A stretch of DNA of 36,069 bases, taken from assembly GCA_016872715.1 (NCBI GenBank), contig VGZD01000031.1:1-36069 (forward strand), written 5' to 3'. Shown piece after piece: positions 1,707-24,208 of this stretch (the first letter of the stretch is position 1; each line of letters begins with the position of its first letter). The notes under the pieces were generated by a model. That model had not been told where the DNA came from. It searched no databases and saw only the letters and a list, made by a program, of their open reading frames with translations. The translations under genes and the position numbers were made by a program. The DNA comes from Planctomycetota bacterium (GTDB taxonomy: Bacteria > Planctomycetota > UBA1135 > GCA-002686595).

Positions 1707-1718
1707 GTGTTGACTTCC

Positions 1719-3653: not shown

Positions 3654-4003
3654 CGTTGTCGAACCCTCGCCTTCGGCAGGCACGGCCGCGGGGCCGAAGC
3701 GAGGGGGTGATCCTCGATCCGGCCGACGCCGCGCAGCCACCACTCGCCCCCACGAACAGGAACTCCGAGCGGATGGCGTCCGCCGGAGGCGGTCGTGCTC
3801 GACCGCGGCGTGGAGGGTCGCTACGGCGGACCCGTCCGTCAAGTGGCTTCCAGCGTCCGGCGCGGGCCGCGGACGAGGCGCCACTTCGGCCGCGCGGCGG
3901 CGGTTGACGCCCGCCGGTCTCGCACGAAGATGGCGGACATGCCGCACGCCCGACGTGACGGTCGCGCGCAGACGTCGTCTCGACTTCAGACTCAGGAGGT
4001 CCC
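3654..4003. other. Divergent intergenic region, aceBA / secreted protein
   Basis: 350 bp between divergent starts. It holds the malate synthase leader hairpin at 3664-3706 and, at its right end, a strong AGGAGG ribosome site (3994-3999) for the plus-strand gene at 4004. Open frames here are arginine/proline-rich and look non-coding. No recognised operator or tRNA was seen. Confidence 0.5.
3664..3706 (-). promoter_or_regulatory. 5' leader hairpin sequestering the malate synthase RBS
   Basis: In the mRNA sense (minus strand) CCCTCGCTTCGGC is followed, after a 15-nt loop, by GCCGAAGGCGAGGG. This gives 13 base pairs with one bulged G. The 3' arm contains the only good Shine-Dalgarno (GAGGG, 10 nt before the ATG at 3653), so folding would hide the ribosome site. 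It may be a translational control element for the glyoxylate shunt operon. The structure is read directly; the regulatory role is inference. Confidence 0.5.
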
Positions 4004-5137
4004 ATGAGAGCCCTGCCCCTGTTCCTCGCTGGCTTGATGTTCACAGCGCTCGCTGCGCCTGCACGAGCGCAGGGTTGCTCGCAGCCCGGCCTGTACTTCC
4101 TCAAGAACGACAACCTCGCCGACGTTCCCGGCACGGCCAGTGTCTCGATCATCCCCGGCCTGTGCGAGGGCGAGGCGATGGGCTGCGTGTTCGACGTCTC
4201 CGGCCAGCAGTTCTCGAGCGAGGTCCGCGTCGCATCGGTCGCGGGCGCGTTCATCAACAACGTCAACGCCGCCGGAATCTCGGCCATCGTCAACCTGAAG
4301 CTCTACGACGGCGTGACGTGGGCCGGCACGACGCCCGTGCTCGGCACCGAGGTGCTCGATTTCGAGAGCGCCACGGGCGCGAGCCTGCAGTTCAACTCCA
4401 GCGGCATCAACACCGTCGACCTCTCGAACCTCAACGTGCGCGTCACGTCGGGCAAGCTCGTCGTCGCGTTCTTCATGGAGATGAACAACGGCGGCGGCTC
4501 GTGCGCGACGGGCTACACGACGAACTTCGCGACGGACAACGCGCTGCCGCCGTGCAGCGGTTCGTGCTCGCCCGCGCGCAAGAACCTGATCTTCATCCAA
4601 GGACAGGGCTGGCGCGACGCGACCAACGCCACGGTGTCGGGAATTCCCATCTGCTCGTGCTACTACGCGGGCAATTGGATCATCCGCTCCTGCGTCGAGC
4701 CGATCGGCTTCCCGCGCACCTACTGCACGGGCAAGCTCAACTCGGCCAACTGCGTTCCCGCGATCGGCTGGACCGGCACGGCAACGCTGACGAGTGGCCC
4801 GGACAACTTCCACGTGCGCTGCACCAACGTGATCAACAACCGCTCGGGCCTCTTCTATTGGGGCACGAGCTCTTCCGCCGCGCCGTTCCTCGGCGGGACC
4901 CTGTGCGTCGCGCAGCCCGTGCGCCGCACGGGCGTGCAGAACTCCGGCGGGAGCTCGACGGGCCTAAACTGCAACACCGGCGCCTACGACTACTACTTCA
5001 CGCACGCCTACGCCGCGGCGAACGCCGTGGCGCCGGGCATCGACTACTACGGCCAGTACTGGATGCGTGATCCGCAGAATTTCGACGGCACCGGGGCCTC
5101 GCTCTCCAACGCCATCCGCTTCCGCTTCGCACCGTGA
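4004..5137 (+). CDS. Secreted protein with shared YCT-type C-terminal domain
   Basis: No assigned function. The 377-residue product begins with a clear Sec signal peptide (hydrophobic residues 4-18, cleavage expected near ARAQG at 21-24). The mature N-terminal part (about 25-235) is rich in Asn, Gly, Ser and Cys and looks like a beta-sandwich extracellular domain. Residues 240-377 form a separate module starting YCTGK and ending in the FRFRFAP-like tail; a clear homologue forms the end of the convergent M28 peptidase next door. The start is well fixed: AGGAGG lies four nucleotides before the ATG. Likely exported to the periplasm or cell surface, possibly disulfide-bonded. It stands alone on its strand, converging on the peptidase with a 42-bp gap. 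Confidence 0.85.
   Translation: MRALPLFLAGLMFTALAAPARAQGCSQPGLYFLKNDNLADVPGTASVSIIPGLCEGEAMGCVFDVSGQQFSSEVRVASVAGAFINNVNAAGISAIVNLKLYDGVTWAGTTPVLGTEVLDFESATGASLQFNSSGINTVDLSNLNVRVTSGKLVVAFFMEMNNGGGSCATGYTTNFATDNALPPCSGSCSPARKNLIFIQGQGWRDATNATVSGIPICSCYYAGNWIIRSCVEPIGFPRTYCTGKLNSANCVPAIGWTGTATLTSGPDNFHVRCTNVINNRSGLFYWGTSSSAAPFLGGTLCVAQPVRRTGVQNSGGSSTGLNCNTGAYDYYFTHAYAAANAVAPGIDYYGQYWMRDPQNFDGTGASLSNAIRFRFAP
4721..5134 (+). other. Shared C-terminal domain, copy A
   Basis: Residues 240-377 of the secreted protein. Landmarks shared with copy B at 5183-5590: YCT.K at the start, C.PAI, a NNRSGL/NQRSGL block followed by an FYWG/FYGY-type aromatic stretch, GG..C, a second SGG block followed by C, a Y..Q.W.RD block and a final RFR tail. 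Four cysteines align between the copies. The rest of the two proteins is unrelated, so this is a mobile module. Confidence 0.75.
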
Positions 5138-9361: not shown

Positions 9362-10093
9362 ATGGCCCACCCACAACTGACCGAAGCCATCGCTTCGATC
9401 CCGCACTTTCACTCGCTGCCTCCCGACCTCGTCGAGAAGCTCGCGGAGGGATCGCGCATCGTGAGATTGGCGCCGCACGAGGTGCTGTTCACGCAGGGCG
9501 AGCCCGTGCGCGGCTTCTACATGGTGCTCTCCGGGGCCGTGCAGCTGTACCGCTCGACTCCCGACGGCCGCGACCAGGTGCTGAACTCCATGAAGTCGGG
9601 GCAGACGTTCGCCGAGGCCGCGGCGTTGACGATGCTCCGGACGCCAGCGAGCGCGCGCACACTCGACGAGAGCGCCGTGCTGATCGAGGTGGGCGCGAGC
9701 TCGCTCGCGGCGCTGATGCACTCCGATCCTCGGGTGGCTTCCTCCGTGGTCGTGTCGCTCTCGCTGTGGCTGCACACGCTGATGGAGCGCGTCGAGGAGT
9801 TGCAGATCGACAGCGCTCCCGCGCGCCTCGCTCGCTACCTGCTGCGCCTGCCCGGCCGTTCCGACGGCGAACGCACCGTGCTCGAGCTACCGATGCCCAA
9901 GAAGGACCTCGCCGCGCACCTCGCGCTCGCGCCCGAGACGCTCTCGCGGCTCCTGCGGCGCTGGCAGAACGAGGGCGTCATCGAGTCGAACGGTCGCGAG
10001 CTGGTCGTGATCGACGCACGCGCGCTCGAAGCCATCGCGGACCGCGACGAACTCCGCGCGCGCAAGGCGCGCGAGGCCGCGCAGGACGATTGA
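9362..10093 (+). CDS. Crp/Fnr-family transcription regulator (Dnr/Nnr-like)
   Basis: DNA-binding regulator of 243 residues: cyclic-nucleotide-binding-type sensor domain (about 15-125), long dimerisation helix (about 125-155) and a winged helix-turn-helix. The recognition helix reads PETLSRLLRRW with E192, S195 and R196. This is the E..SR triad by which Fnr and Dnr read TTGA half-sites. It has no cysteine at all, so it cannot carry the oxygen-sensing [4Fe-4S] cluster of Fnr; a Dnr/Nnr-like role in sensing nitrogen oxides or redox is more likely (inference). It converges on the nitrate/HAO operon with a 117-bp gap. A matching TTGAC-N4-GTCAA site lies in that operon's promoter region, so the operon is the likely target. 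Confidence 0.9.
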   Translation: MAHPQLTEAIASIPHFHSLPPDLVEKLAEGSRIVRLAPHEVLFTQGEPVRGFYMVLSGAVQLYRSTPDGRDQVLNSMKSGQTFAEAAALTMLRTPASARTLDESAVLIEVGASSLAALMHSDPRVASSVVVSLSLWLHTLMERVEELQIDSAPARLARYLLRLPGRSDGERTVLELPMPKKDLAAHLALAPETLSRLLRRWQNEGVIESNGRELVVIDARALEAIADRDELRARKAREAAQDD

Positions 10094-10210: not shown

Positions 10211-10768
10211 TCACAGACGGCTGAAGGAGCCGTCCTGCTGCTGCGCTACGTGGCACTGCTCGCAGCGCGCGCGTTCGGGGTGGGAGCAGCGCAGCTCCTC
10301 TCTAGCGGCGGGCCCGTCGTGGCAGGCGCCGCAGTTTTCGCGCATCGCGGTGCCGTGGGGCATCACGGGCGGCGCGCCGTCGTAGAGGCGCTCGCCCCGC
10401 CGAAGATCCTGAGCGAGGCCGACGAACGTGTTGGCCACGAACTCGCCACCGTCGATGGCGTGGACGTGACACTGGTTGCAGCGCGAGAGCGCGGACATGC
10501 CGGGCGTTTCGGCGTGCGGCGAGGGCGGCGCGAAACCGAGGTCGGGAACGTCCATTCCGCGCGCGTTGTGGCACTGGACGCACGCCGCGCCGAGCGGTGG
10601 GTGCGGGATCACGGGCGGCGCGCCGTCGAACAGCCGCCGCGTCGCGCGCACGCTGGCGCTGGACTTGAGCGCCCCAGCGCGGCCCGGCACGGCGAGCTTG
10701 CCAGCCTCCGTCGACGCCTCGCCGCAGGCAGCGAACATGCAGAGCGCGAGGCTCGCGAGTCCCCTCAC
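10211..10768 (-). CDS. napB: NapB-like nitrate reductase cytochrome c, duplicated to tetraheme
   Basis: Electron-transfer subunit expected to pass electrons to NapA outside the cytoplasmic membrane. The 185-residue product has four CxxCH heme sites, at residues 63-67, 97-101, 146-150 and 169-173. Ordinary NapB has two. The NapB pattern (DGAPPVIPH, CxxCH, a further Pro-His pair, CxxCH) occurs twice: residues about 44-104 and about 124-176, the second with DGAPPVMPH. So it is an internal duplication of the diheme unit. The N-terminus is hydrophobic and ends in FAAC, a possible lipobox, so it may be a lipoprotein. I chose GTG at 10768 because it overlaps the napA stop as GTGA and gives the signal peptide; an ATG at 10738 is the alternative. 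Last gene of the operon. Confidence 0.82.
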   Translation of the reverse strand: MRGLASLALCMFAACGEASTEAGKLAVPGRAGALKSSASVRATRRLFDGAPPVIPHPPLGAACVQCHNARGMDVPDLGFAPPSPHAETPGMSALSRCNQCHVHAIDGGEFVANTFVGLAQDLRRGERLYDGAPPVMPHGTAMRENCGACHDGPAAREELRCSHPERARCEQCHVAQQQDGSFSRL

Positions 10769-13128
10769 GATCCCTGCTCCACGAGTTCGATCCGCACCGC
10801 GCACTTCTTGTAGTCGGGCTCCTTCGAGATGTTGTCCAACGCATCGAGCGTCAGCTCGTTGATGAGCTTGGACTCGTCGAAGAACGGCACGAACACGCTG
10901 CCTCGCGGCGGCTTTCCGCGTCCATCGACGCGCGCCTCGAGCGTGAGCTTGCCGCGCCGCGAGCGCAGCCGCACCAGATCGCCTGACTTCACGCCCAGAT
11001 CGAGCGCATCCGCGCGATTGAGCTCGACGTACGCGCGCGGAACGGCCTGATGCAGTTGGCGAACGCGCCGCGTCATCGAGCCGGTGTGCCAGTGTTCGAG
11101 CACGCGTCCGGTGCACAGCCACAGCGGAAACTCGGCGTCGGGTTCCTCGGCGGGCGGGTGGTACGGCCGCAGCCAGATGGCCGCACGCTCTCCATAGCCC
11201 TTGGCCTTGTAGAAGTGCACGTCGCGTCCCGCGGCGACGTAGGGATCGTGCCCGCCTGCGTAGCGGTAGCGCGTTTCCTTGCCGTCGACCACCGGCCAGA
11301 GCAGGCCGCGGGTGGCCTGAAGCTGCTTGTAGCTCGCGATGTCCTTGCCGATTCCGAGCGTGAACGAGCGGTACTCCTCGAACATCGCTTCGTGCCAATC
11401 ACCCTCCCACGGGAACAGGTGTCCCAGCCCCATGCGTCGCGCGACCTCGACGATCTGCCACGCATCCTCGCGCGCCTCGCCGGGAGGTTCGACGAGCTTG
11501 TTCCACTGCTGCGTGCGACGCTCCGAGTTGCCGAACACGCCCTCGCGCTCGACCCACATCGCGCTCGGCAGGATCAAGTCGGCCTGATCGGTCGTCGGCG
11601 TCGGGTAGACGTCGCTCGCGATCAGGAAGCGTCCGTCGCCGGGCCGACGCTCGAAGCGGTGGAGATTGGGGAGCGAGACCCACGGGTTGGTGGTCTGCAC
11701 CCACAGGCAGGTGACGTCACCACGCTGGAAGGCGCGGAACATGTCGACGGCGTGATGCCCCGGCTTGTCGGGAATCGTGCCCGCGGGGAGCTTCCAGAGC
11801 TTTTCCGCCTTGGCGCGGTGCTCGGGATTGGTCACCACCATGTCGGCCGGCAGGCGGTTGGCGAGCGTGCCGACCTCGCGCACCGTGCCACAGGCCGAGG
11901 GCTGGCCGGTCAGGCTGAACGGATTGTCGCCGGGCCGACAGATCTTGCCCGTGACGAGGTGCAGGTCGGTGATCAGGTTGTTCATCCAGGTGCCGCGCAC
12001 GTGCTGATTCACGCCCATGCACCACAGGGACAGCGTCTTGCGCTTGTTGTCACCGTAGATCGACGCGAGCAGCTCGAGCTGCTGCACGGAAATGCCCGAG
12101 ATCTCGCTCACGCGCTGCGGCGCATAGTCCTCGAGGAACTGCTTGAATTCCTCGAAGCTAGAGTCCTTGGGCGTGTCGTTGAACGTGTAGCGCTCCGCCT
12201 GTTCGCCCGAGCAGCCGTAGCCGATCTTCGCGAAGTCCTCCTCGCCGCGTCTGAAGACGCAGTTCTTGTCGATGAAGCTCTGCGCGACCTTGCCCTGCTT
12301 GACGAGCAGGTGCAGGATTCCGTTGGCGATCGCGAGGTCGCTGCCCGGACGGAACTCGACGTACAGATCGGCGTAGTCGCTCGACGGCGTGCGGCGCGTG
12401 CCGATGTCGATCAGGCGCACCGTCCCTCGCCGTCGCTTGCTCTCGAGGATGCGGCTGAAGAGCACGGGGTGCATCTCCGCCATGTTCGCGCCCCACAGCA
12501 CGACGTCGTCGGCGAGCTCGAGGTCCTCGTAGCAGCCCATCGGCTCGTCCGACTGGAACTGCGCCATGAAGCCCGTCACGGCGCTCGCCATGCACAGGCG
12601 AGCGTTGGGATCGAGGTGGTTCGAGCGCAGCCCACCCTTGACCCATTTGAGCGCGGCGTAGCCATCGAAGACGGTCCACTGGCCGGAGCCATACACGGCC
12701 ACCGAATCCGGGCCGCGCTGGTCGAGCGCCTCGCGATATTTCGAGGCGATGAGGTCGAGCGCCGCATCCCACGAAATGCGCTCGAGCGTGCCGTCGGACC
12801 GGCGGAGCTGCGGGTACTGCAGGCGATCGGCGCCGTAGAGGATCGCGGGCAGGTGATAGCCCTTGACGCACAACAGCCCCTTGTTGACCGGGCTCTTCTC
12901 GTCTCCGCGCACGGCGACGACCTTGCCGTCGCGCGTTCCGACCTCGACTCCGCAGCCCGTGCCGCAGAAGCGGCAGGGGGCCTTGTCCCAGCTCTCCACC
13001 GCGGGCGACGGAGCTCCGAGCGGCGCCTCGAGCGTGGCGGCCTCGGCGCGATCTCCCTCGGAGAACGCGACGCAGCCGGTGCCGACGCCCAGCACCTTGA
13101 ACAGCGTCCTGCGATCGAGCGCCGCCAT
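10765..13128 (-). CDS. napA: Periplasmic nitrate reductase catalytic subunit
   Basis: Molybdenum bis-MGD enzyme reducing nitrate to nitrite. 787 residues, close to the family norm of about 800-830. A Tat-type leader is present (DRRTLFK at 5-11, then a hydrophobic stretch), predicting folded export. The [4Fe-4S] cysteines are C52, C55, C59 and C87 with Cx2Cx3Cx27C spacing, followed by the conserved lysine of CVKGYH. The probable Mo ligand is C179 in NARLCMASA. This argues for NapA rather than formate dehydrogenase (which uses SeCys/Cys in a different context) or NarG (Asp ligand). It starts two nucleotides after the HAO-like gene stops and overlaps napB by four. No napD chaperone gene is in the window, and napC and napG are absent too. 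Confidence 0.9.
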   Translation of the reverse strand: MAALDRRTLFKVLGVGTGCVAFSEGDRAEAATLEAPLGAPSPAVESWDKAPCRFCGTGCGVEVGTRDGKVVAVRGDEKSPVNKGLLCVKGYHLPAILYGADRLQYPQLRRSDGTLERISWDAALDLIASKYREALDQRGPDSVAVYGSGQWTVFDGYAALKWVKGGLRSNHLDPNARLCMASAVTGFMAQFQSDEPMGCYEDLELADDVVLWGANMAEMHPVLFSRILESKRRRGTVRLIDIGTRRTPSSDYADLYVEFRPGSDLAIANGILHLLVKQGKVAQSFIDKNCVFRRGEEDFAKIGYGCSGEQAERYTFNDTPKDSSFEEFKQFLEDYAPQRVSEISGISVQQLELLASIYGDNKRKTLSLWCMGVNQHVRGTWMNNLITDLHLVTGKICRPGDNPFSLTGQPSACGTVREVGTLANRLPADMVVTNPEHRAKAEKLWKLPAGTIPDKPGHHAVDMFRAFQRGDVTCLWVQTTNPWVSLPNLHRFERRPGDGRFLIASDVYPTPTTDQADLILPSAMWVEREGVFGNSERRTQQWNKLVEPPGEAREDAWQIVEVARRMGLGHLFPWEGDWHEAMFEEYRSFTLGIGKDIASYKQLQATRGLLWPVVDGKETRYRYAGGHDPYVAAGRDVHFYKAKGYGERAAIWLRPYHPPAEEPDAEFPLWLCTGRVLEHWHTGSMTRRVRQLHQAVPRAYVELNRADALDLGVKSGDLVRLRSRRGKLTLEARVDGRGKPPRGSVFVPFFDESKLINELTLDALDNISKEPDYKKCAVRIELVEQGS

Positions 13129-13130
13129 GG

Positions 13131-14747
13131 CTACTTGGGCTCTTTGCCGCGCTCGGCGCGCATTTTCGCGAGGTCGCGCTCGTACCACTGGTGCTCGGGT
13201 CGGGCGAGGATCTCGTTCACGAGCGCCAAGACGATTTCGGCCTCGGCCGCCTTGCCGTGCTCGCGACCGTGCTCCGCGAGCTCGCGCACCTGCGGAATGA
13301 GCTCCATGTAGAAGCGCTCCGCCACTTCGAACATGCCGTGCCAGTGCGCGTAGTCCGGCGCCATCATCGACGCGCCGTGGCGCGCGCGACGACCTTCGTG
13401 GTGCCACAGGTAGTACCAAGTCCACTCGACCTCCTCGTCGAAGTCGGCCTTGGTGCGCAGGCCGTTCTCGACGAGCGCCTTCATCATGCGCAGGCCGGGC
13501 TTGGCGAATTTCTCGTTGTAGAGCACGACGAAGTCGTCGTACTGCTTGTAGAAGCCGTTGATGTACTCGGTGGAGTGGCACACCGAGCAGACCTCCTGCA
13601 TGCGCGTGCGCTTGGCCTCCCACGTGTCGTGGACCAGCGCGCGACGCTTCTCGGGATCGGTTTCTCCGACGATCTTGTGGTCGAGGTCGGTGTCCATCGC
13701 GAGGCTGATGGCGGGGCGGTTGGTCCACGAGATGCGCTCGCCCGGATCGTGCGTGATGCGCCCGCCGTTGCGGACGTTGCCCGACATGTGGCAGCTCGCG
13801 CAGGTCGGCGCGCCGGTGTAGTCCTTGCCGAGCACCCACTCGTCGGCGTCGAGGTTCATCTCGCCGAGCAAGTCGCGGAACGCGACGCCGTGCTTGGATT
13901 CCTCGTAGATTTCCTTCTGCGGATGGTCGGGACCGAGGTGGCACTTGCCGCAGTTCTCCGGCTGGCGCGCGCGCCGCGGCGAGAAGTCGTGGCGGCTGTG
14001 ACAGGCCGAGCAGGAGCCGAGGGAGCCATCGAGGTTGATGCGCCCGATCCCGGTGTTCGGCCAGGTGCTCGACGAGAATTTCGGGCGACCGTTCTGGTCC
14101 TTGACGACGCGTGCGACCGCATCGAGGTTGGTCGGCTTGCCGTCGAGGCCGGGCTTGAAGTCATCGACGGTCAGGATCTTGCCGTCGCTCGACTCGAGGC
14201 CGACCTTGGCTCCGTGGCACTGCTGGCAGCCTGTGTTGGCGCTGGCCATGCCATTGGCGTGCACGAACGCGCGCCCCGGCGTCGGGGAATGGAGCCCGAC
14301 CGGGCCGCGGTTGCCCTCGACGACCTCCGCGAGGAAGTTGTCGAGCGAGGCGAGGATGTTGCCACCCTTGGCGTGGTGGCTGCGACCGAACTCGGCGGCG
14401 ACGTCCGCGTGGCAGCGCCCGCAGTCGTTGGGCGTGACGACGGTCGCAACGTGCGCTCCGTAGTGGTCGAACCCATCGACGTCGCCCTTCTGCGCCTCGT
14501 GGCACTCCAGGCAGCCGACGCCGCGCTCGGCGTGCTTGCTGCCGGTCCAGTGCGCGACGAGGCCCGGGGTCGACTGCGCGTGGCAGTCGACGCACGCCAC
14601 GGAGGTCGCCGGGACGTTGATGTGCGGCTTGGAGTGGCCGCTTTCTTCGGCGCGCCGCGAGACTTCGCGCCATTGGACGAAGAGCAGCGAGACGAGGAAG
14701 GCCGCGCTGAGGAAGGCGATCACGCCGCGCTTGAATTCGAGAGTCAT
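13131..14747 (-). CDS. Octaheme HAO-like cytochrome c, N-terminally anchored
   Basis: Multiheme oxidoreductase of the hydroxylamine oxidoreductase family, 538 residues. Eight CxxCH sites, with first cysteines at 52, 79, 109, 174, 246, 266, 316 and 387; the fourth is where the family carries its catalytic heme. No CxxCK site, which argues against NrfA or octaheme tetrathionate reductase. The family C-terminal helical block is present (YLWHHEGRRARHG, PDYAHWHG). Residues about 8-25 form one uncleaved-looking membrane helix. Whether it oxidises hydroxylamine or reduces nitrite depends on the heme-crosslinking tyrosine, which I cannot align by eye. Its place between a Rieske/cytochrome b module and napAB favours a reductive role on nitrite. 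An AAGGAAA ribosome site lies about seven nucleotides before the ATG. Confidence 0.87.
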   Translation of the reverse strand: MTLEFKRGVIAFLSAAFLVSLLFVQWREVSRRAEESGHSKPHINVPATSVACVDCHAQSTPGLVAHWTGSKHAERGVGCLECHEAQKGDVDGFDHYGAHVATVVTPNDCGRCHADVAAEFGRSHHAKGGNILASLDNFLAEVVEGNRGPVGLHSPTPGRAFVHANGMASANTGCQQCHGAKVGLESSDGKILTVDDFKPGLDGKPTNLDAVARVVKDQNGRPKFSSSTWPNTGIGRINLDGSLGSCSACHSRHDFSPRRARQPENCGKCHLGPDHPQKEIYEESKHGVAFRDLLGEMNLDADEWVLGKDYTGAPTCASCHMSGNVRNGGRITHDPGERISWTNRPAISLAMDTDLDHKIVGETDPEKRRALVHDTWEAKRTRMQEVCSVCHSTEYINGFYKQYDDFVVLYNEKFAKPGLRMMKALVENGLRTKADFDEEVEWTWYYLWHHEGRRARHGASMMAPDYAHWHGMFEVAERFYMELIPQVRELAEHGREHGKAAEAEIVLALVNEILARPEHQWYERDLAKMRAERGKEPK

Positions 14748-14828
14748 GGACGTTTCCTTGCGATTCGCAGTTGGCGCTTGTGGTGTGAGAGGCGCTGTGT
14801 TGGCGTTGGTTTGTTGGGGGGGTGTCGA

Positions 14829-14848
14829 GAGCCCGCGGCGGCGGGCTC
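14829..14848 (-). other. Intercistronic stem-loop at the cytochrome b stop
   Basis: GAGCCCGC-GGCG-GCGGGCTC, an 8-bp perfect stem with a 4-nt loop overlapping the TGA (14849-14847) of cytochrome b. It lies before the HAO-like gene, with 99 bp between the two reading frames. With no U-tract it may be an mRNA-processing or stability element that sets different levels of the membrane and heme subunits. Confidence 0.45.
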
Positions 14849-15899
14849 AGTGAGCCACGGAGGCTTCCCAGACGGTCAAGGCGATGATCGCGAGCGCACC
14901 GACGATGCCGATCCACACGCTCGCTTCGCTCTGGGGCCTGAACTTGCGGATGCGCGCGTCGATGAACGGCCACGCGTACATCAGGAACACGATCAGGCCC
15001 ATGGAGAGCACCGCGAGCGTGCCGCTGAAGAGCTTCAGCCAGCGGAACGCGACGTAGAAGAACCACTCGGGCTTGATCACCTCGGGCGTCGAGAGCGGAT
15101 CGGCCTTCGGCCCCATCTCCGCCGGCAGCACCGTGGCGAGAACGCTGAGCAGCACCATCAACACCAGACCGATCGAGAGCTCGGTCAGCAGGTGATCGGG
15201 AATGAAGTTGAAGAAGGCCGGCTGCTTGCGATCTTCATCGCGGAAGTGGAATTCGGTCACGCCCTGCAACCGGATCAGCGTCACGTGCAAGGCGATCAGC
15301 GCCGCCATCGTCACCGGCAGCACGGCCGCGTGCAGGATGAAGAAGCGCGAGAGCGTGTTCTCGTTGTAGACCTCGCCGCCGAGTAGGAGCTGCTTCAGAT
15401 ACACGCCGACGATCGGCACGTTGTCGGTGATGTTCGCGCCCACCGTCGCACCCCAATACGAGAGTTGCTCGTACACGAGGCTGTAGCCTGTGAAGCCGAC
15501 GATCAACGTCAGGAGCAGCAGACACATGCCGACGAGCCAGTTCAGCTCGCGCGGCTTGCGGTACGCGCCGGTGAAGTACACGCGCATCTGGTGCAGCACG
15601 ACCGCCGCGACCATCAGCGTCGCGGCCCATTTGTGTAGGCCGCGCAGGAACCAGCCGAAGCTCGCCTCCTCGGTGATGTAGCGCACCGACTCGTAGGCGG
15701 TCTGCGGCGACGGCTTGTAGTAGAAAGCGAGCAAGATGCCCGTGACGATCTGCACGACGAACAGGTAGGCCGGCGTGCCGCCGAGACACCACCACCACTT
15801 CTTGAGGTGGTTGGGTACGGGCTCGTTGGTGAGCTCGCGCAATTGCTCCGGCCCGACCGGCACGCGTTCGCGGATCCAAGTGAGCGGTGAGAAGCTCAC
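14847..15899 (-). CDS. Cytochrome b, b6-type fused with subunit-IV-like part
   Basis: Membrane quinol-oxidising subunit of a Rieske/cytochrome b complex, 350 residues, about seven to eight membrane helices. Heme ligands are H89/H103 and H190/H205, spaced 14 and 15 as in chloroplast and cyanobacterial b6. C38 in WWCLGG matches the cysteine that binds the extra heme c-n in b6f. The C-terminal part has the Qo motif PEWF at 277-280, as in subunit IV, so b6 and subunit IV are fused, here with extra C-terminal helix sequence. The frame is open to 16586, but the Rieske gene occupies that region; GTG at 15899 overlaps the Rieske stop as GTGA and gives a normal N-terminus. Operon partner of the Rieske and HAO-like proteins. 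Confidence 0.9.
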   Translation of the reverse strand: MSFSPLTWIRERVPVGPEQLRELTNEPVPNHLKKWWWCLGGTPAYLFVVQIVTGILLAFYYKPSPQTAYESVRYITEEASFGWFLRGLHKWAATLMVAAVVLHQMRVYFTGAYRKPRELNWLVGMCLLLLTLIVGFTGYSLVYEQLSYWGATVGANITDNVPIVGVYLKQLLLGGEVYNENTLSRFFILHAAVLPVTMAALIALHVTLIRLQGVTEFHFRDEDRKQPAFFNFIPDHLLTELSIGLVLMVLLSVLATVLPAEMGPKADPLSTPEVIKPEWFFYVAFRWLKLFSGTLAVLSMGLIVFLMYAWPFIDARIRKFRPQSEASVWIGIVGALAIIALTVWEASVAH

Positions 15900-16492
15900 A
15901 GCGGCGCTCCAGCGTCCAAACACGGATCGTGCCCCTCGCGCTGCGCGGCCGCGTCGGCGACCTCGAGCGACTTGGTCGGCACTTCGATGTACAGGAGCCC
16001 GCCTTCGACGCGCAGCGGGTAGCGCGGCAGCGATTGTCCGGCATCGCCGGGCGGCCCGCTGATGCCCTTGCCCGACTTGTCGAAGGCGCCGTTGTGACAG
16101 GGGCAGAAAAAGCGCTGGTTCTGCGCCTCCCAGTGCACCTGACATCCCAAGTGCGGACAGGTGCTCGACAACGCGACGAAGTCCTCGGCGGTGCCGGTCG
16201 ATCCGCCCCGCGCCAGCGTGACCCGCTCGCCTGCGGGAGTCGTGTAGCTCAGGCTGCCGCCGACGGCGACATCCGCGAGGCGCGCGAGGAACATCCACGC
16301 CTTCTCGCGGGGCTTGGACGGGTAGAGGTACCGCGCGGCGTAGAAACCGGCCGTGCCGTAGCTCGCTCCGAGTCCGGCGAGCATGCCTAGCGACGAGGCG
16401 CTGGCTAGGAAACTGCGGCGGTCGGTCGGGTTGCCGGAGTCCTGACCCTCGTGCTCGGACTGCGGCGGGGAAGGGCGTTGGGGGGGGTGCAT
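15896..16492 (-). CDS. Rieske [2Fe-2S] protein
   Basis: High-potential iron-sulfur subunit that takes an electron from quinol at the Qo site. 198 residues. N-terminal twin-arginine anchor TDRRSFL (23-29) followed by a hydrophobic helix (about 30-52), as in membrane-anchored Rieske proteins exported by Tat. Cluster box 1 CPHLGC (112-117) and box 2 CPCH (130-133): ligands C112, H114, C130 and H133, with C117-C132 as the stabilising disulfide. I chose the ATG at 16492 (GAGG about 8 nt upstream); the frame is open to 16591. First gene of the five-gene operon, 85 nt downstream of the Fnr/Dnr-type palindrome. Confidence 0.92.
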   Translation of the reverse strand: MHPPQRPSPPQSEHEGQDSGNPTDRRSFLASASSLGMLAGLGASYGTAGFYAARYLYPSKPREKAWMFLARLADVAVGGSLSYTTPAGERVTLARGGSTGTAEDFVALSSTCPHLGCQVHWEAQNQRFFCPCHNGAFDKSGKGISGPPGDAGQSLPRYPLRVEGGLLYIEVPTKSLEVADAAAQREGHDPCLDAGAPL

Positions 16493-16887
16493 GACGAGCC
16501 TCGCGGCGCACCGAAGGGTCCCGATGACCCTCACACGGCGCTCGCTCGGAGCTTGGTCGCCCCGAACCCCTCGCTCCTTGACGCAAGTCAAGCGCAGGGC
16601 CGTCTACGCCCTAGCCGTAGATCGCCTACGACAAAGTGCGCATCCGTCGGCGTACTTCATGTCCCGCGCCGGGGACGCGCGGCGGTGCTCGCGCCCGAGA
16701 GCTGCCCACGCCGACGCGCTTCGCCGGTTTCGCGAGCCCGCCCCTCCGAGGACCGTGCTGCGCTCTTTGGCGCAATTGACGGATGGCCGCGCCGCGGCGA
16801 ACCTCCCTATCGCGGTCGAGGTGACCGTCTCCAGCGGACCTGCGCCGCATGGAGTCTTGGCTGAGTCCCTCGACGAGGTAGATCCGT
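16493..16887. other. Divergent promoter region, respiratory operon / NapH-like gene
   Basis: 395 bp without a credible gene. It holds the TTGAC-N4-GTCAA operator at 16578-16591, a weak minus-strand -10 candidate (CAAGCT, 16555-16550) at the spacing expected for a class II Fnr-type promoter, and the GAGGTAG ribosome site of the plus-strand gene. Open frames here are arginine-rich shadows. Confidence 0.55.
16578..16591. promoter_or_regulatory. Fnr/Dnr-type operator, perfect palindrome
   Basis: TTGACGCAAGTCAA, extended by one pair on each side to CTTGACGCAAGTCAAG (16577-16592). It matches the TTGAN-N4-NTCAA architecture of Fnr/Dnr/Nnr boxes. Its centre is 31 bp from the centre of a weak CAAGCT -10 candidate on the minus strand, class II activator geometry. 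It precedes the Rieske start by 85 nt and the NapH-like start by about 297 nt. The Crp/Fnr gene at 9362-10093 has the matching E..SR recognition helix. Confidence 0.75.
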
Positions 16888-17877
16888 GTGAAGATGATCG
16901 CGCTCCCCACCGCGTCCGGCCGCCGCTGGTGGTGGACGGCCCAGATGATCGGACTCGCGCTGACCGGTGTCCTGCTGGTCGAGCTGCTCGCCGCGCCCCA
17001 GCCGACCCTGCACGTCCTGTGGGACATGGTGATCCCGCTGTTGCCCGCCGTATTTCTCGTGAATCCGTTGGTGTGGAGGAGCGTGTGTCCGCTGGCGACC
17101 ATCAACGAATACACCGGAAATCAAGCCGGGCGCGGTGCCGTGCCGCCGCGCGTGCTGCGCGTGGCCTGGGTCATCGGCATCGCGCTGCTGTTCGCGATGG
17201 TGCCCGCACGCCGTTTCCTGTTCAACGAAGACGGTGCTGCGCTCGCGATCACGATCTCGCTCGTGGCCCTATTGGCGCTGCTCGCGGGGCTGACCTTCGC
17301 CGGCCGCGCAGGATTCTGCAACGCGATCTGCCCGGTGCTGCCGGTCGAGAAGCTGTACGGGCAGGCACCGCTGCTCCCGCTCTCCGGCGCGCGCTGCGCG
17401 TTCTGCACGGTCTGCACACCGGCTGGGTGCATCGATCTGGCCGCGGACAAGACGATGGCGCAGACGGTCGGTCCGCTCCGCAAGCACAGCGGCTGGACGG
17501 CCACCGGATTGGGCGTGTTTGCCGCGGCTCTGCCGGGCTTCATCATCGGCTACTTCACGACATCCAACCAAGGCCTCGATTCGGCGGGAGCCGTCTATGC
17601 GTGGGTGCTCGGGCTGGCCGTGGTGAGCTACGTCGTGGTCGCGCTGATCGCCCGGACGGTCAACGCGCGCGCGCAGATTGCAATGCCCGTGCTCGGCGCC
17701 GCCTCGCTCGGCCTCTACTACTGGCATGCTTCGCCGTCACTCGCGGCTTCGTACGCATTGGCCCCAGGCGGCGCGTGGGTGCTGCGCGCCGTGATGGGCG
17801 CGACGCTGGCGTGGTGGCTCTGGCGCACGCTGCGACGAACGTCGTGGCGAAACGCAACGACTCCCGCGGACTCCTGA
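16888..17877 (+). CDS. NapH-like polytopic iron-sulfur membrane protein
   Basis: Probable membrane electron-transfer protein of 329 residues with several hydrophobic helices. Motifs of the NapH/NosR/CcoG-type family: a first cysteine-proline (C67-P68), C144-x3-C148-P149, and one ferredoxin-like motif C170-x2-C173-x2-C176-x4-C181. NapH proper has two ferredoxin clusters ending in CP; only one is visible here and its last cysteine is not followed by proline, so the exact family is uncertain. I chose GTG at 16888 because GAGG (16875-16878) is well placed; an ATG at 16894 is the alternative. It diverges from the Rieske-HAO-Nap operon and shares its operator region. It might feed or drain quinol electrons, or serve a maturation role. 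Confidence 0.72.
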   Translation: MKMIALPTASGRRWWWTAQMIGLALTGVLLVELLAAPQPTLHVLWDMVIPLLPAVFLVNPLVWRSVCPLATINEYTGNQAGRGAVPPRVLRVAWVIGIALLFAMVPARRFLFNEDGAALAITISLVALLALLAGLTFAGRAGFCNAICPVLPVEKLYGQAPLLPLSGARCAFCTVCTPAGCIDLAADKTMAQTVGPLRKHSGWTATGLGVFAAALPGFIIGYFTTSNQGLDSAGAVYAWVLGLAVVSYVVVALIARTVNARAQIAMPVLGAASLGLYYWHASPSLAASYALAPGGAWVLRAVMGATLAWWLWRTLRRTSWRNATTPADS

Positions 17878-19262: not shown

Positions 19263-19541
19263 CTAGCCTCCGCTCAGAGCCTGCAAGATCGACAACTTGT
19301 CTCCGGGCGCAACCGCGTCGGAGAGCGTGCGGCGGTCCTTGACCATCGCGTTGCCGATGAAGAGGTTGACGTGCGGGCGCAGGCGGCCCCGCTCGTCGCA
19401 GATGTAGAAGCCAATGCCGGGGGCGAGCCGCTCGAGCTCGGCCACGGCTCCCGCCACGCTGGCGGCCTCGACCTCGAGCACGCGCCCCTCGAGCTGGGGG
19501 AAGAACGCGAACAAATGGCGCGTGAGATGGACTTGGATCAC
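19263..19541 (-). CDS. MoaD/ThiS-family ubiquitin-fold protein
   Basis: Small sulfur-carrier-type protein of 92 residues ending in Gly-Gly (ALSGG), the tail that is adenylated and thiocarboxylated in MoaD and ThiS. Beta-grasp features: FFPQLEG near the start, a helix in the middle, LFIGN and a DKLSILQALSGG end. It starts with GTG (19541), with a G-rich stretch upstream. Its operon partner is the propeller gene, not moaE or thiG, so a role in molybdenum cofactor or thiamin synthesis is not shown; NapA 6 kb away is the only molybdenum link. It could be a carrier for sulfur transfer or protein modification. Confidence 0.82.
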   Translation of the reverse strand: MIQVHLTRHLFAFFPQLEGRVLEVEAASVAGAVAELERLAPGIGFYICDERGRLRPHVNLFIGNAMVKDRRTLSDAVAPGDKLSILQALSGG

Positions 19542-19747
19542 CGGCGAACCCCCGCGGCCAGCCCCGCGGCCAGTCTCGCGGCGCGCAAGACGCTACGTTC
19601 AGAATCGGGTCGCGAGTCCTAGGGGGTGTGAGCCTGAAATCGAAGCGCGGGTCGGTCCCGCGACGGACGGGGCGGGTTCGGCAGCGCGCGATCAGCGCTG
19701 GAAAGAGGGTGGTGGCGCGCGGGCAGGGGACGGACACTTGGGCGACC

Positions 19748-22150
19748 ATGTCGCTGCACGTTTCGGCCGTCCTCGCGCTGCTCGTCACCACGGCCCCCGC
19801 GCAGGTGCGCGTGCAGCAGGGAGCGGAGCTGCCTGCGCTCCCGGATCCCGTTGGGCGGGCCGGCATGGCAGCCGTGCCGGTGCGCGGGCCGGACGGATCG
19901 CGTGCGGTGCTCGCGGCAGGCGGCGCCAACTTCCCGGGGTCGATGCCTTGGGACGGAGGCATCAAGGTCTTTCATCGAGAGCTCTGGTCGCTGGAGCAGG
20001 GCGAGGATGGCTGGACGTGGCGAGCGGTGGCTCAACTGCCGGAGCCCGTCGCCTACGCAGCCTTCGCGCCGCATCCCGAGGGCATGGTGCTGGCCGGCGG
20101 CGCGAACGCCACGGGCCATCTGCGCAGCGTGCGCCTCGTGCGCTTGGACGGCTCCACGCGGGACCTCGCCGCGCTGCCCTCGACGCTCGCCTATGCGGCC
20201 TTTGCCACGACGCGCAACCGTCTGTGGATCGCCGGTGGTCAGGAGACGCCCACTTCACCGCGCGCGCTGCCGCAACTGCTCTCGCTCGACCTCACGCGCG
20301 ATGACGCTGCTTGGGATGCGCATGCATGGCCCGCCGCGGACCGCATCCTCGCCACGGCCGGAGTGGTCGACGACGTCTTTCACCTGCTCGGCGGCTGCCG
20401 ACTCGAGCCCGACGCGGCGGGAGCACCTGCGCGCACCTACCTGCAAGACGTGCTGTCCGTGCGCCTGTTGGATCTCGAGGTCGGCGAGCGGGTCCGCGAC
20501 GCCGAGAGCGGCAGGCTGCCGTGGCCGATGGCGGCGAGCGCCGGCCCCGCGATCGCGCGCGAAGGCGCACTCGTGCTCGGCGGCGCCGACGACGGCTCCC
20601 ACCGCGGCAAGCCGCCGAGCGAACATCCCGGACAACGTGCGACCATCCTGAGCTTCGACCCGCGCACGGGCACGACCACCGAGCTCGGCGCGCTCGGCAC
20701 CGGCGTGGTGACCGCGCCGCTCGCTGTCGTCGACGACCTGTGCATCGTGGTGAGCGGCGAGTTGCGTCCGGGCGTGCGCACGCCCGCGACCCAGACGTTC
20801 GAGCTCGCGTACGAGCCCGCCTTCAGCTGGGTCGACGTGCTGATGCTCGCACTGGGAGTCGTGGCGCTCGGCGCGACGGCGCTCCAGCGCAAGTCGAGAT
20901 CGGCCATGGCGGCTCCCACCGACCGCCCCGGGCGAGCAGCATGGGTTGCCGTCGGACTGCTGTTCGTAGTCGCGGCCCTCAACTACCTCGATCGGCAGCT
21001 CCTCTCGACCATGGCCGCGCCGATCCAGCGCGACATCCCGCAGACGAGCGCGCAATTTGGCCTGCTCACCTCGGTCTTTCTGTTCGTCTACTCGGCGTTG
21101 AGTCCGGTGGGCGGCATCCTCGCCGACCGACACAGCCGCCGGATCGTCATCCTCATCTCGCTGGTGGTGTGGTCCGCCGTGACGTGGCTCACGGGCCACG
21201 TGGCCACGTGGGAGCAACTGCTACTCGCCCGCGCGCTCATGGGTGTGAGCGAGGCCTTCTACATTCCCGCGGCCCTCGCGCTCATCACGGATTTCCATCG
21301 CGGCCGGACGAGATCGCTCGCCACGGGCCTGCACATGGGCGGCATCTACACGGGTCAGGCGCTCGCGGGGCTCGGCGGGCACGCAGCCGAGGCGCTCGGC
21401 TGGCGCACGGCGTTCGGCGCCTTCGGAGTCGTGGGCGTCGTGTACGCGCTCGTGCTGGTCGTGTTCCTGCGCGAACCATCGGAGAGCCAACCGACCGTCG
21501 CAGCCACCGCGCCGAGCGCCCCGCGCCCCGCATTGCGCACGATCCTCTCCAGCCTGTTTCGAGTGCGCTCGTTCTGGCTGCTGCTCGCGATCATGGGCAC
21601 GGCGAGCATCTCCAACTGGTTCGTGCTGTCGTGGCTGCCGAAGCTGCTGCAAGATCGCTTCGACCTGTCGCTCGGCGATGCCGGCACGCTCGCGACCGTT
21701 CCGACCACGCTGGCCAAGTACGCGGCCGTGCTGCTGGGCGCACTCGCGGCCGACCGGTGGGCCGCGCGCGACCCGCGCGGTCGCGCACGCCTCGCCGCAC
21801 TCGCGATGCTCGCCGCTGGCCCGATGATCGCGTGCACGACGCTGCTCCCCGGCGACGCCATCGCGCTGTTCGTGGCGCTGGTCGCCTTTCAGGGCATCGC
21901 GCAAGGCGTGCTCGACGCGACGCTCATGCCCATCCTGCGCACGCAGATCGACGAGCGGTTCGCTGCCTCCGGATACGGCTTCATCAACCTCGTCGGCGCG
22001 GGTTGCGGAGGACTCTCCGTCCTCTACGGCGGCGCCTTGAAAGACGCTGGCATCCCGCTCGACGCCACGCTGGCCCTCTCGGGCGGCGGTCTGGTGGTCT
22101 GTGGCGTTGCGCTGCTGGCGCTGCCCGCTACCGTGGCGCGCCATGAGTGA
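19748..22150 (+). CDS. Sialic acid epimerase (NanM-like) fused to MFS transporter
   Basis: Predicted bifunctional sialic acid uptake protein of 800 residues. Residues 1-19 are a signal peptide; about 20-355 form a kelch-type propeller with the NanM/mutarotase signature GGANFPGSMPWDGG and GGxxD/GGxx repeats. A single helix (about 360-381) leads into a major facilitator domain (about 397-800, about 12 helices) with LNYLDRQLLS and an RhsRR-type loop between helices 2 and 3. Topology fits: propeller in the periplasm, one helix inward, MFS domain starting in the cytoplasm. The epimerase would convert alpha- to beta-N-acetylneuraminate and hand it to the carrier. I chose the ATG at 19748 (the frame is open from 19628) because it begins the signal peptide. 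Overlaps nanA by eight nucleotides. NanM and transporter are normally separate. Confidence 0.85.
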   Translation: MSLHVSAVLALLVTTAPAQVRVQQGAELPALPDPVGRAGMAAVPVRGPDGSRAVLAAGGANFPGSMPWDGGIKVFHRELWSLEQGEDGWTWRAVAQLPEPVAYAAFAPHPEGMVLAGGANATGHLRSVRLVRLDGSTRDLAALPSTLAYAAFATTRNRLWIAGGQETPTSPRALPQLLSLDLTRDDAAWDAHAWPAADRILATAGVVDDVFHLLGGCRLEPDAAGAPARTYLQDVLSVRLLDLEVGERVRDAESGRLPWPMAASAGPAIAREGALVLGGADDGSHRGKPPSEHPGQRATILSFDPRTGTTTELGALGTGVVTAPLAVVDDLCIVVSGELRPGVRTPATQTFELAYEPAFSWVDVLMLALGVVALGATALQRKSRSAMAAPTDRPGRAAWVAVGLLFVVAALNYLDRQLLSTMAAPIQRDIPQTSAQFGLLTSVFLFVYSALSPVGGILADRHSRRIVILISLVVWSAVTWLTGHVATWEQLLLARALMGVSEAFYIPAALALITDFHRGRTRSLATGLHMGGIYTGQALAGLGGHAAEALGWRTAFGAFGVVGVVYALVLVVFLREPSESQPTVAATAPSAPRPALRTILSSLFRVRSFWLLLAIMGTASISNWFVLSWLPKLLQDRFDLSLGDAGTLATVPTTLAKYAAVLLGALAADRWAARDPRGRARLAALAMLAAGPMIACTTLLPGDAIALFVALVAFQGIAQGVLDATLMPILRTQIDERFAASGYGFINLVGAGCGGLSVLYGGALKDAGIPLDATLALSGGGLVVCGVALLALPATVARHE
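22127..22134 (+). promoter_or_regulatory. GCTACCGT -10-like element inside the fusion gene
   Basis: TACCGT at 22129-22134, eight nucleotides before the nanA ATG at 22143. It lies in coding sequence and could be an internal promoter or coincidence. Confidence 0.25.
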
Positions 22151-23063
22151 ATTCCGCATCCGCGGCATCTGTGCCGCGACCCACACCCCCTTCTCATCCG
22201 ACGGATCGATCGACCTCGCCGCCGTCGACGCGCAGCGCGATCACCTGCTCGCGCGCGGCGTCGACCAAGTGTTCATCGGCGGCAGCACGGGCGAGAGTCA
22301 CTCGCTCGGCATCGACGAGCGGCGGAGCCTCACCGAGCGCTGGGTCGCTGCCGCGCGCGGCACGGGATTGCACGTGATCGTGCACGTGGGATCCAACTGC
22401 CTCACCGACGCCGCGGCCCTCGCCGCGCACGCTCAGCGGCAAGGCGCCGCGGCGGTCTCGATGCTCGCGCCGTCGTACTTCAAGCCGCGCTCGCTCGCGG
22501 ACCTCGTGGCCTGCTGCGAAATGGTCGCGTGCAAGGCGCGCGAGCTGCCCTTCTACTACTACGACATCCCGGTGCTCACGGGCGTCCACTTCTCGATGGA
22601 GGAGTTCCTCGAGCTCGCGCCGGCGCGCATCGGCAACCTGCGCGGCATCAAGTTCACCAATCAGGACCTGATGGCCTACCAGTTGGCGCTCCGCGCCTCC
22701 GGCGGCCGCTTCGACCTGCCGTGGGGCTGCGACGAGTTCTTCCTCGCGGCGCTCGCTCTGGGCGCGCGCGGCGCCGTGGGCAGCACGTTCAACTTTGCGC
22801 CCGGCGTCTACCAACGCATGCAGGCGGCCTTTGCGCGCGGCGACCTCGAAGGCGCGCGCACCGAGCAATTCCGCTCGGTGCAGCTCGTCAAGGTCCTCGC
22901 GAAGCGCGGCTACATGGGCTGCGCCAAGGCGCTGATGGTCCACCTTGGCGTGCCGGTCGGACCCGCGCGGCTGCCCAACGCCAACCCGGATGCCGCCGCG
23001 GTGAAGGCGATGCTGGCTGAGTTGGAGCAGATCGGCTTCTTCGACTGGAGGGACGCGCGATGA
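22143..23063 (+). CDS. nanA: N-acetylneuraminate lyase
   Basis: Splits N-acetylneuraminate to N-acetylmannosamine and pyruvate. 306 residues, TIM-barrel class I aldolase of the DapA/NanA family. GGSTGES (46-52) is the pyruvate-carboxylate loop; Y140 before DIPVLTGV is the catalytic tyrosine; K170 in GIKFTNQDL is the Schiff-base lysine. The GxKFTxxDL context resembles animal and Bacteroides lyases more than E. coli NanA. Context separates it from DapA: it lies between an epimerase/transporter fusion and a sialidase, overlapping both (8 nt, and ATGA). I chose the ATG at 22143; the frame is open to 22101. Cytoplasmic. Confidence 0.9.
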   Translation: MSEFRIRGICAATHTPFSSDGSIDLAAVDAQRDHLLARGVDQVFIGGSTGESHSLGIDERRSLTERWVAAARGTGLHVIVHVGSNCLTDAAALAAHAQRQGAAAVSMLAPSYFKPRSLADLVACCEMVACKARELPFYYYDIPVLTGVHFSMEEFLELAPARIGNLRGIKFTNQDLMAYQLALRASGGRFDLPWGCDEFFLAALALGARGAVGSTFNFAPGVYQRMQAAFARGDLEGARTEQFRSVQLVKVLAKRGYMGCAKALMVHLGVPVGPARLPNANPDAAAVKAMLAELEQIGFFDWRDAR

Positions 23064-24208
23064 TCCTCGTGCTGCGCAACTTGGCGATCCTCCTGCTCGC
23101 GGCCGCCACGCCCCTCGACGAGCCTGACTACGTCACCGTGTTCAAGGCGCCGGGGTCCACTGGGCAGCCCTCGATTCGCATCCCGGCCCTGTTGTGCACG
23201 ACCAAGGGCACCTTGCTCGCCTTCGCGGAGGGCCGCAACGGGCACGCCGACCAAGCGAGCAACGACCTCGTGCTCTCGCGCTCCACCGACGGGGGCAAGT
23301 CGTGGTCGAAGGCGAAGGTCGTGGTCGCCGAGGGCGAGGGCTCGGTCAACAACCCGACGGTCGTACAGGACCGCAAGTCGGGCCGCATCTTCCTGCACTT
23401 CCATGTGTTTCCCACGGGCGCGAAGGAGTTCGACAAGCTCGCTCCTGGCCCCAAGGGCGCCACGCGCATGGGTTGCGTGACGTCCGATGACGACGCTCGC
23501 ACGTGGTCGGATCCCATCGACCTCAACGCCGCGCTCAAGCCCGACAACGCGACCACCGTGGCGCAAGGTCCCGGCATCGGCATCCAGCTCGAGCGTGGGC
23601 CGCATGCGGGCCGCCTGCTGGTGCCGTGCAACTCCCAAGACGAGCACAAGGCGTTCGTCAACTGGATGGCGATCAGCGACGACGGCGGCGCGAGCTGGCG
23701 ACGCGGCCAGAACGTCCCGCAGGAAGGCATGCAGCTCAACGAGGTGCAGGTCAGCGAGACGCGGGACGGCTCGGTCTACCTCAACTCACGCCAGTGGCGC
23801 GGAACCGGCGGTCGCAAGGCCGCGTGGTCCACGGACGGCGGCGAGACGTGGTCGCAGGCGATCGAGGACCAGCAGTTGCCCGAGCCGGTGTGTCAGGGCA
23901 GCCTCATTTCGTGGCACGAGAAGGACCGCCACTGCACGCTGTTTCTCAACCCCGAGGGCGAGCCCCCCGGCAAGGGCCGCAAGCGCGGCACCGTGCGCCT
24001 CTCGCTCGACGGCGGCAAGACTTGGCCCGTGTCGAAGCCGCTCGTGCCCGGGCCGTTTGCCTACAGCTCGATGGCGCGCCTGAAAAACGGCCGCATCGGA
24101 GTGCTCTACGAACCCGCGGGCGACACCGAGATCCGCTTCCTCACGTTCGACATGGCGTGGCTGGAGAAGGCCGAGCGAGAGACGGCTCCGGGCAGCGCGA
24201 AGAAGTAG
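23060..24208 (+). CDS. Exo-alpha-sialidase (GH33-like)
   Basis: Releases terminal sialic acid from glycans. 382 residues with a hydrophobic N-terminus (about 4-17), probably exported. The RIP motif with catalytic-triad arginine R40 is present, as are five Asp boxes SxDxGxxW at 75-82, 142-149, 206-213, 257-264 and 315-322; D64, E228 and Y335 are the plausible acid/base, glutamate and nucleophilic tyrosine. Start ATG overlaps the nanA stop (ATGA), so translation is coupled. Last gene of the operon, followed at once by a strong hairpin. Whether it removes sialic acid from host or algal material cannot be told. Confidence 0.9.
   Translation: MILVLRNLAILLLAAATPLDEPDYVTVFKAPGSTGQPSIRIPALLCTTKGTLLAFAEGRNGHADQASNDLVLSRSTDGGKSWSKAKVVVAEGEGSVNNPTVVQDRKSGRIFLHFHVFPTGAKEFDKLAPGPKGATRMGCVTSDDDARTWSDPIDLNAALKPDNATTVAQGPGIGIQLERGPHAGRLLVPCNSQDEHKAFVNWMAISDDGGASWRRGQNVPQEGMQLNEVQVSETRDGSVYLNSRQWRGTGGRKAAWSTDGGETWSQAIEDQQLPEPVCQGSLISWHEKDRHCTLFLNPEGEPPGKGRKRGTVRLSLDGGKTWPVSKPLVPGPFAYSSMARLKNGRIGVLYEPAGDTEIRFLTFDMAWLEKAERETAPGSAKK

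Follow-up and report, generated by a model that had tools for sequence, protein, structure and literature searches.

Here we report that a 36,069 nt stretch of Planctomycetota DNA (the window) carries a minus-strand operon in which a Rieske protein and a b6-type cytochrome b are encoded together with an octaheme HAO-like cytochrome, the nitrate reductase NapA and a tetraheme NapB. Protein families, motifs, gene order and conservation, the link between a membrane anchor on the HAO-like protein and the presence of Rieske/b genes, and the lack of NapC, NrfH and NrfA matches can all be read from the sequence. From these features we give a probability of roughly 0.64 to an electron route from quinol through the Rieske/b module to nitrite reduction by the HAO-like protein, with NapAB sharing the supply. 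The idea itself is already known, near-identical proposals having been made for Caldithrix and Nitrospira (PMC5317091, PMC6606698, PMC12342949), and the operon is a real, widespread and compact variant of it.

We infer a direction of electron flow that would begin with the oxidation of quinol, probably menaquinol, at the Qo site of a dedicated Rieske/cytochrome b complex, with the octaheme HAO-like protein standing in for cytochrome c1/f. One electron would pass through the Rieske domain into the anchored HAO-like subunit and its hemes. That subunit would reduce nitrite, probably to ammonium, and might also reduce hydroxylamine or NO; the second electron would go to the b hemes and heme c-n, a process that could conserve energy, presumably with proton translocation. 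NapA and its tandem tetraheme NapB, probably lipid-anchored, would be co-expressed with the complex, fed by the same Rieske/HAO hemes, and would supply the nitrite.

The five genes, all on the minus strand, encode the Rieske [2Fe-2S] subunit (15896..16492; 198 aa; PF00355), a cytochrome b6-type subunit with fused subunit IV (14847..15899; 350 aa; PF00033 and PF00032), the octaheme HAO-like cytochrome c, likely a nitrite (NOx) reductase subunit (13131..14747; 538 aa; PF13447; eight CXXCH), the periplasmic molybdenum nitrate reductase NapA (10765..13128; 787 aa; NF010055 and TIGR01706) and the tetraheme NapB, a probable lipoprotein with a GTG start (10211..10768; four CXXCH; PF03892). They are joined, in this order, by a 4-nt overlap, a 99-nt gap, a 2-nt gap and a 4-nt overlap, so that the co-directional block described in an earlier note on this DNA is confirmed, with Pfam/NCBIfam support for each gene. 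The range given in that note also took in a divergent “NapH-like” gene (16888-17877, plus strand); we have dropped it, as it has no Pfam/NCBIfam match and was found near the operon neither in the 94%-identical relative L052 nor in the rest of the 80 loci. The true extent of the operon is consequently about 10211-16591, rather than up to 17877.

A palindrome, TTGACGCAAGTCAA, forms an FNR/CRP-type site at 16578..16591, 86 nt 5′ of the Rieske start and the single match in 36 kb against 0.02 expected. The same palindrome occurs at the same distance from the Rieske gene in L052, which adds little weight since L052 and the source genome are close kin. A CRP/FNR-family regulator (9362..10093, plus strand; PF00027 and PF13545) is a candidate regulator of the operon; an 84% identical copy lies downstream of the operon in L052, an arrangement that is not general. 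Elsewhere in the window we noted by eye a sialic-acid use cluster (19526-24208, plus strand), comprising a kelch protein joined to an MFS transporter, a DapA/NanA-type lyase and a sialidase-like BNR protein, and adjoining isocitrate lyase and malate synthase genes of the glyoxylate shunt (3-4040, minus strand).

The Rieske subunit has a Tat-type N-terminus (DRRSF) and the motifs CPHLGC and CPCHNGAFD. Both in the window and in most relatives with a readable motif (CPCHNGxFD), Gly and Phe occupy the Ser/Tyr tuning positions, which makes a lower Rieske potential, and menaquinol as the donor, likely. In the yeast Rieske protein, loss of the potential-raising Ser and Tyr costs about 130 and 65 mV, respectively, and Kustd1480 illustrates that sequence-based predictions of Rieske potential can fail (PMC12954380). 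A second Rieske protein of the same genome has CTHLGC and CPCHGSGF, with the Ser kept. The cytochrome b contains the four heme-b His in b6 spacing (H-x13-H and H-x14-H), the motif WWWCLGG with the heme c-n/c-i cysteine, and PEWF replacing PEWY, all of which are kept in relatives. There is no cytochrome f/c1 in the usual place: the gene after cytochrome b is the octaheme HAO-like one in the window, and likewise in the 94 loci where cytochrome b directly precedes HAO.

The N-terminus of the HAO-like protein is an uncleaved hydrophobic helix, MTLEFKRGVIAFLSAAFLVSLLFVQW, at about residues 3-35, modelled at pLDDT 80-87 within a whole-protein model of 55.4. In a first set of loci, all 94 HAO-like proteins with an adjacent cytochrome b gene were anchored and 20 of 21 without one were unanchored. 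The exception (L127) is an anchored protein with no Rieske/b nearby; at this locus an apparent [NiFe]-hydrogenase large subunit and HypB are encoded upstream of the anchored HAO-like gene (L127:5715-10599). A blind test was then made on genomes chosen solely by the start of the HAO match, either at residue 1 or around residue 40-50; Rieske and cytochrome b genes lay immediately upstream in 31/31 anchored cases, and 5/5 unanchored ones had neither gene. The 31 are partly the same genomes as the named loci of the first set, one being a repeat (L247), and are thus not wholly independent; one further locus (L248), with Rieske and cytochrome b present and a frameshifted HAO gene, was left unscored. 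Since the genomes also share ancestry, the result is a strong association and not 36 independent events. The correlation (31/31 and 5/5) argues for the HAO-like protein as a fixed subunit of the Rieske/b complex that replaces cytochrome c1/f, and the simplest meaning of the anchor would be that it docks the protein into that complex.

The best solved relative of the HAO-like protein is 4qo5, the octaheme cytochrome of Ignicoccus (2e-42 for the single sequence, 4e-62 for a profile); its closeness to the reductive IhOCC/eHao type is judged by solved structures. The Tyr of the NDATY motif in anammox hydrazine dehydrogenase is residue 462 of the 582-aa precursor, the number of the Tyr that is cross-linked to the catalytic heme. 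As MAFFT misplaced hydrazine dehydrogenase in the Tyr region and hhalign was indecisive, the cross-link column was anchored on D-x5-G; by this sequence alignment, the column holds His468 in the window and Trp in HAOr-like paralogues, and Tyr466 lies two residues away. We lean towards a reductive enzyme, a view supported by genomic context, as a sister HAO clade and the genome G040 both combine HAO with Nap and quinol modules. The sister clade (L194-L197, L051 and L198) is without Rieske/b, and various members among L194-L197 lie near genes for NrfD, an FeS protein, a tetraheme cytochrome, NapGH-like proteins and NapAB; its NrfCD-type module appears to be a parallel quinol dehydrogenase for the same reductase, so that this HAO type would occur with two kinds of quinol dehydrogenase. 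G040 has Rieske-b-HAO together with a different NapA, a diheme NapB and NapGH-like genes.

Membership of the HAO family, the Tyr466 near the cross-link position and the Rrf2-type regulators near some loci would also suit an oxidative protein that feeds electrons from hydroxylamine or NO into Rieske/b as a detoxification route. We consider this highly improbable, given the His at the D-x5-G anchored column, the Ignicoccus protein as nearest solved relative, and the fact that HAO is coupled to NapA and, within the sister clade, to quinol modules of the NrfCD type. It is unlikely, if less so, that the HAO-like protein reduces nitrite only as far as NO, like anammox HAOr, and that the operon makes NO from nitrate. 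NO formation has been reported for anammox HAOr (as cited in PMC12758564) and Kuste4574 has been proposed as an NO maker (PMC12954380), but HAOr paralogues are only distant relatives of the protein described here, at about 110 bits against more than 1000, and for both the eHao-type systems and Nitrospira ONR the link is to ammonium (PMC5317091, PMC6606698). A point against our main reading, like L127, is that the anammox HAO-like relatives that we examined sit away from Rieske/b, among them a close HAO relative (about 570 bits) in several HDH-bearing anammox genomes (L182-L187 and L193), which is also away from Nap. The exception is L181 (G396:C31), from a hydrazine dehydrogenase genome, with Rieske-cytb-HAO in the same order and without Nap.

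NapA scores 966.6 bits with NF010055 (cut-off 904) and 935.8 with TIGR01706 (cut-off 930.6). It has a Tat signal (RRTLFK), the [4Fe-4S] cysteines in CRFCGTGC...LCVKG and the Cys ligand to Mo in ARLCMASA, as aligned with 2nya, its closest solved chain. The downstream gene had been described as a NapB-like cytochrome, which its PF03892 match (26.5 bits against a cut-off of 25.1) and the match of a profile of six homologues to the NapB structures 1ogy_B and 1jni_A bear out, although it has four CXXCH motifs instead of two. These lie in two blocks, each with PPV[IM]PH and two CXXCH, the second of the pair being CXQCH, and the protein is apparently two NapB units in tandem. Homologues of this NapB turned up downstream of related NapA genes in 31 cases; all have four CXXCH, and many start with a lipobox-like LAAC. 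Neither the structure model of NapB (pLDDT 37.5) nor that of the whole HAO-like protein was good enough for a fold search.

No PF03264 or PF02335 match was found in the 92%-complete genome, in agreement with the earlier observation that NapC, NrfH and NrfA are missing. The same holds for NapGH, with none in the block and no recurrent NapGH-like neighbour of this lineage in 88 related loci. The nearest relative, G004, carries NrfA and an NrfH-type match. Also present in the source genome are a second Rieske/b complex, an ACIII-like cluster and two heme-copper oxidases, and the five-gene block is therefore probably an alternative to aerobic respiration. The second Rieske/b complex (L206, G000:C3:58000-68500) has separate b6-like and subunit-IV-like genes, with a 1189-aa frame containing eight CXXCH at the same locus. 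ten Brink and colleagues have reportedly reviewed multiple Rieske/cytochrome b complexes in BBA.

The Rieske-cytb-HAO order recurs in Planctomycetota, Acidobacteriota, Gemmatimonadota and Myxococcota, and in single records titled as other phyla, and with this recurrence in several phyla the five-gene order is far beyond chance. The prediction that other genomes would share it thus held for the first three genes, with NapAB less constant. Cytochrome b lies directly before HAO in 87 of the 108 loci with at least 2.5 kb of upstream sequence, most of the remaining 21 being sister or anammox paralogues fetched on purpose; the named loci are the nearest 80 of more than 577, mostly metagenome bins, and not a census. 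Five loci fetched twice are included in the raw locus counts and were removed for the NapA count. Of the 74 distinct loci that extend far enough downstream, 26 have NapA as the very next gene after HAO, which rules NapAB out as an obligatory part, and 14 gains or losses on the HAO tree are required to account for the presence of NapA. Among 392 evenly drawn Planctomycetota genomes, an HAO-like match at E <= 1e-150 occurs in 48 and the window's NapA lineage (at least 70% identity) in 13; in 11 of these 13 that NapA lies directly downstream of the HAO-like gene. Of the other two, G148 has this NapA at a contig start and the HAO-like gene on a separate contig, and G067 has a 5′-truncated NapA and no HAO-like gene at E <= 1e-150. 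Because NapA comes and goes, yet NapA genes of the window's lineage are found almost exclusively at HAO loci, Rieske-b-HAO is the core and the window's NapAB a specialist partner of it.

Clustering of neighbours revealed no further constant gene, and many clusters were reverse-strand shadow ORFs. An alginate-export-type outer membrane porin family (PF13372) occurs near the core in 21/88 loci (for example L052:8193-9590) and is not adjacent to it in the window. Rrf2-family regulators occur in 12/88 (for example L063:4770-5240) and hemerythrin-like proteins in 5/88, with NO or nitrite sensing a possible role for both.

The earlier note had proposed that Rieske/b feeds both NapAB and the HAO-like protein within a supercomplex. 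The shared feed is favoured by the conserved order, the tie between Rieske/b and HAO and the failure to find another Nap or Nrf quinol dehydrogenase. Against it, most Rieske-b-HAO loci are without adjoining NapAB, which loosens the tie of NapAB to the complex and leaves quinol-to-nitrite as the primary route. The anchor correlation covers the HAO-like protein alone, and we hold a supercomplex that contains NapAB to be less probable than the electron route. Doubtful in its full form is a single membrane assembly of Rieske, b, HAO, NapA and tandem NapB in which quinol electrons would take nitrate to ammonium (eight electrons) with Q-cycle energy conservation, and in which the HAO-like protein would be both cytochrome c1/f equivalent and terminal reductase. 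The 14 changes on the HAO tree, together with the ACIII-like cluster and second Rieske/b complex, could also reflect two systems in one operon, with Rieske/b-HAO reducing nitrite and NapAB served by a different donor, which might be a quinol dehydrogenase that has escaped recognition or else a soluble cytochrome belonging to ACIII or to the second bc complex. We regard this as rather unlikely, since the NapA lineage of the window occurs hardly anywhere but at this type of locus and is without a NapC/NapGH-like partner; we infer instead that NapB would draw on the Rieske/HAO hemes.

The closest precedent is Caldithrix abyssi, whose Nap cluster likewise includes Rieske and cytochrome b genes, next to the gene for an octaheme HAO-like nitrite reductase (eHao), with no NapC and no NrfAH; as early as 2017 this electron route was put forward for it (PMC5317091). 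Caldithrix has NapM instead of NapB, plus NapG and NapH (PMC5317091), whereas the operon described here has a tetraheme NapB, no NapGH or NapM in the block and a compact five-gene order. Nitrospira resembles it, by description, in having Rieske and cytochrome b genes upstream of an octaheme nitrite reductase (ONR), to which they are proposed to be the quinol-linked donor (PMC6606698, PMC12342949). On nitrite as nitrogen source the genes are co-expressed with ONR (PMC6606698), but the proposed role is assimilatory and no NapAB is described (PMC6606698, PMC12342949). Anammox Kuste4569-4574 shares a b6-type cytochrome b, a Rieske protein and an HAO-like octaheme subunit, reported to co-migrate; it differs in an NAD(P) oxidoreductase and an extra multiheme cytochrome, neither of which is encoded in the window block, and in a Rieske protein that keeps Ser and Tyr (+303 mV) where the window has Gly/Phe (PMC12954380). 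In Campylobacter jejuni a Rieske/b complex supplies NapAB, as shown by deletion, but this is a standard Qcr with diheme QcrC, NapGH is present and the complex has no HAO-like subunit (PMC6195509). For Planctomycetota, a Phycisphaerae paper, in the passages covered, notes an octaheme protein without Rieske/b context (PMC11266412), and a study of Planctomycetota bins, again in the passages covered, names hao, napAB and Rieske/b genes as separate items (PMC10732223). In the literature searched, mostly outside subscription journals, neither the five-gene order nor the tandem NapB nor the anchor rule was found described.

When electrons reach Nap through NapC or NapGH, the quinol step is usually regarded as not energy-conserving (PMC6195509); a Rieske/b complex with a built-in terminal reductase would make nitrite reduction electrogenic. 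The core occurs in many uncultured planctomycetes, acidobacteria and gemmatimonads, and so bears on whether nitrite is kept as ammonium or lost as gas. An “HAO” annotation can be misread as nitrification or anammox, clouding the fate of nitrite, and the N-terminal anchor offers a simple marker in the sequence for telling HAO-like proteins linked to Rieske/b from the other forms.
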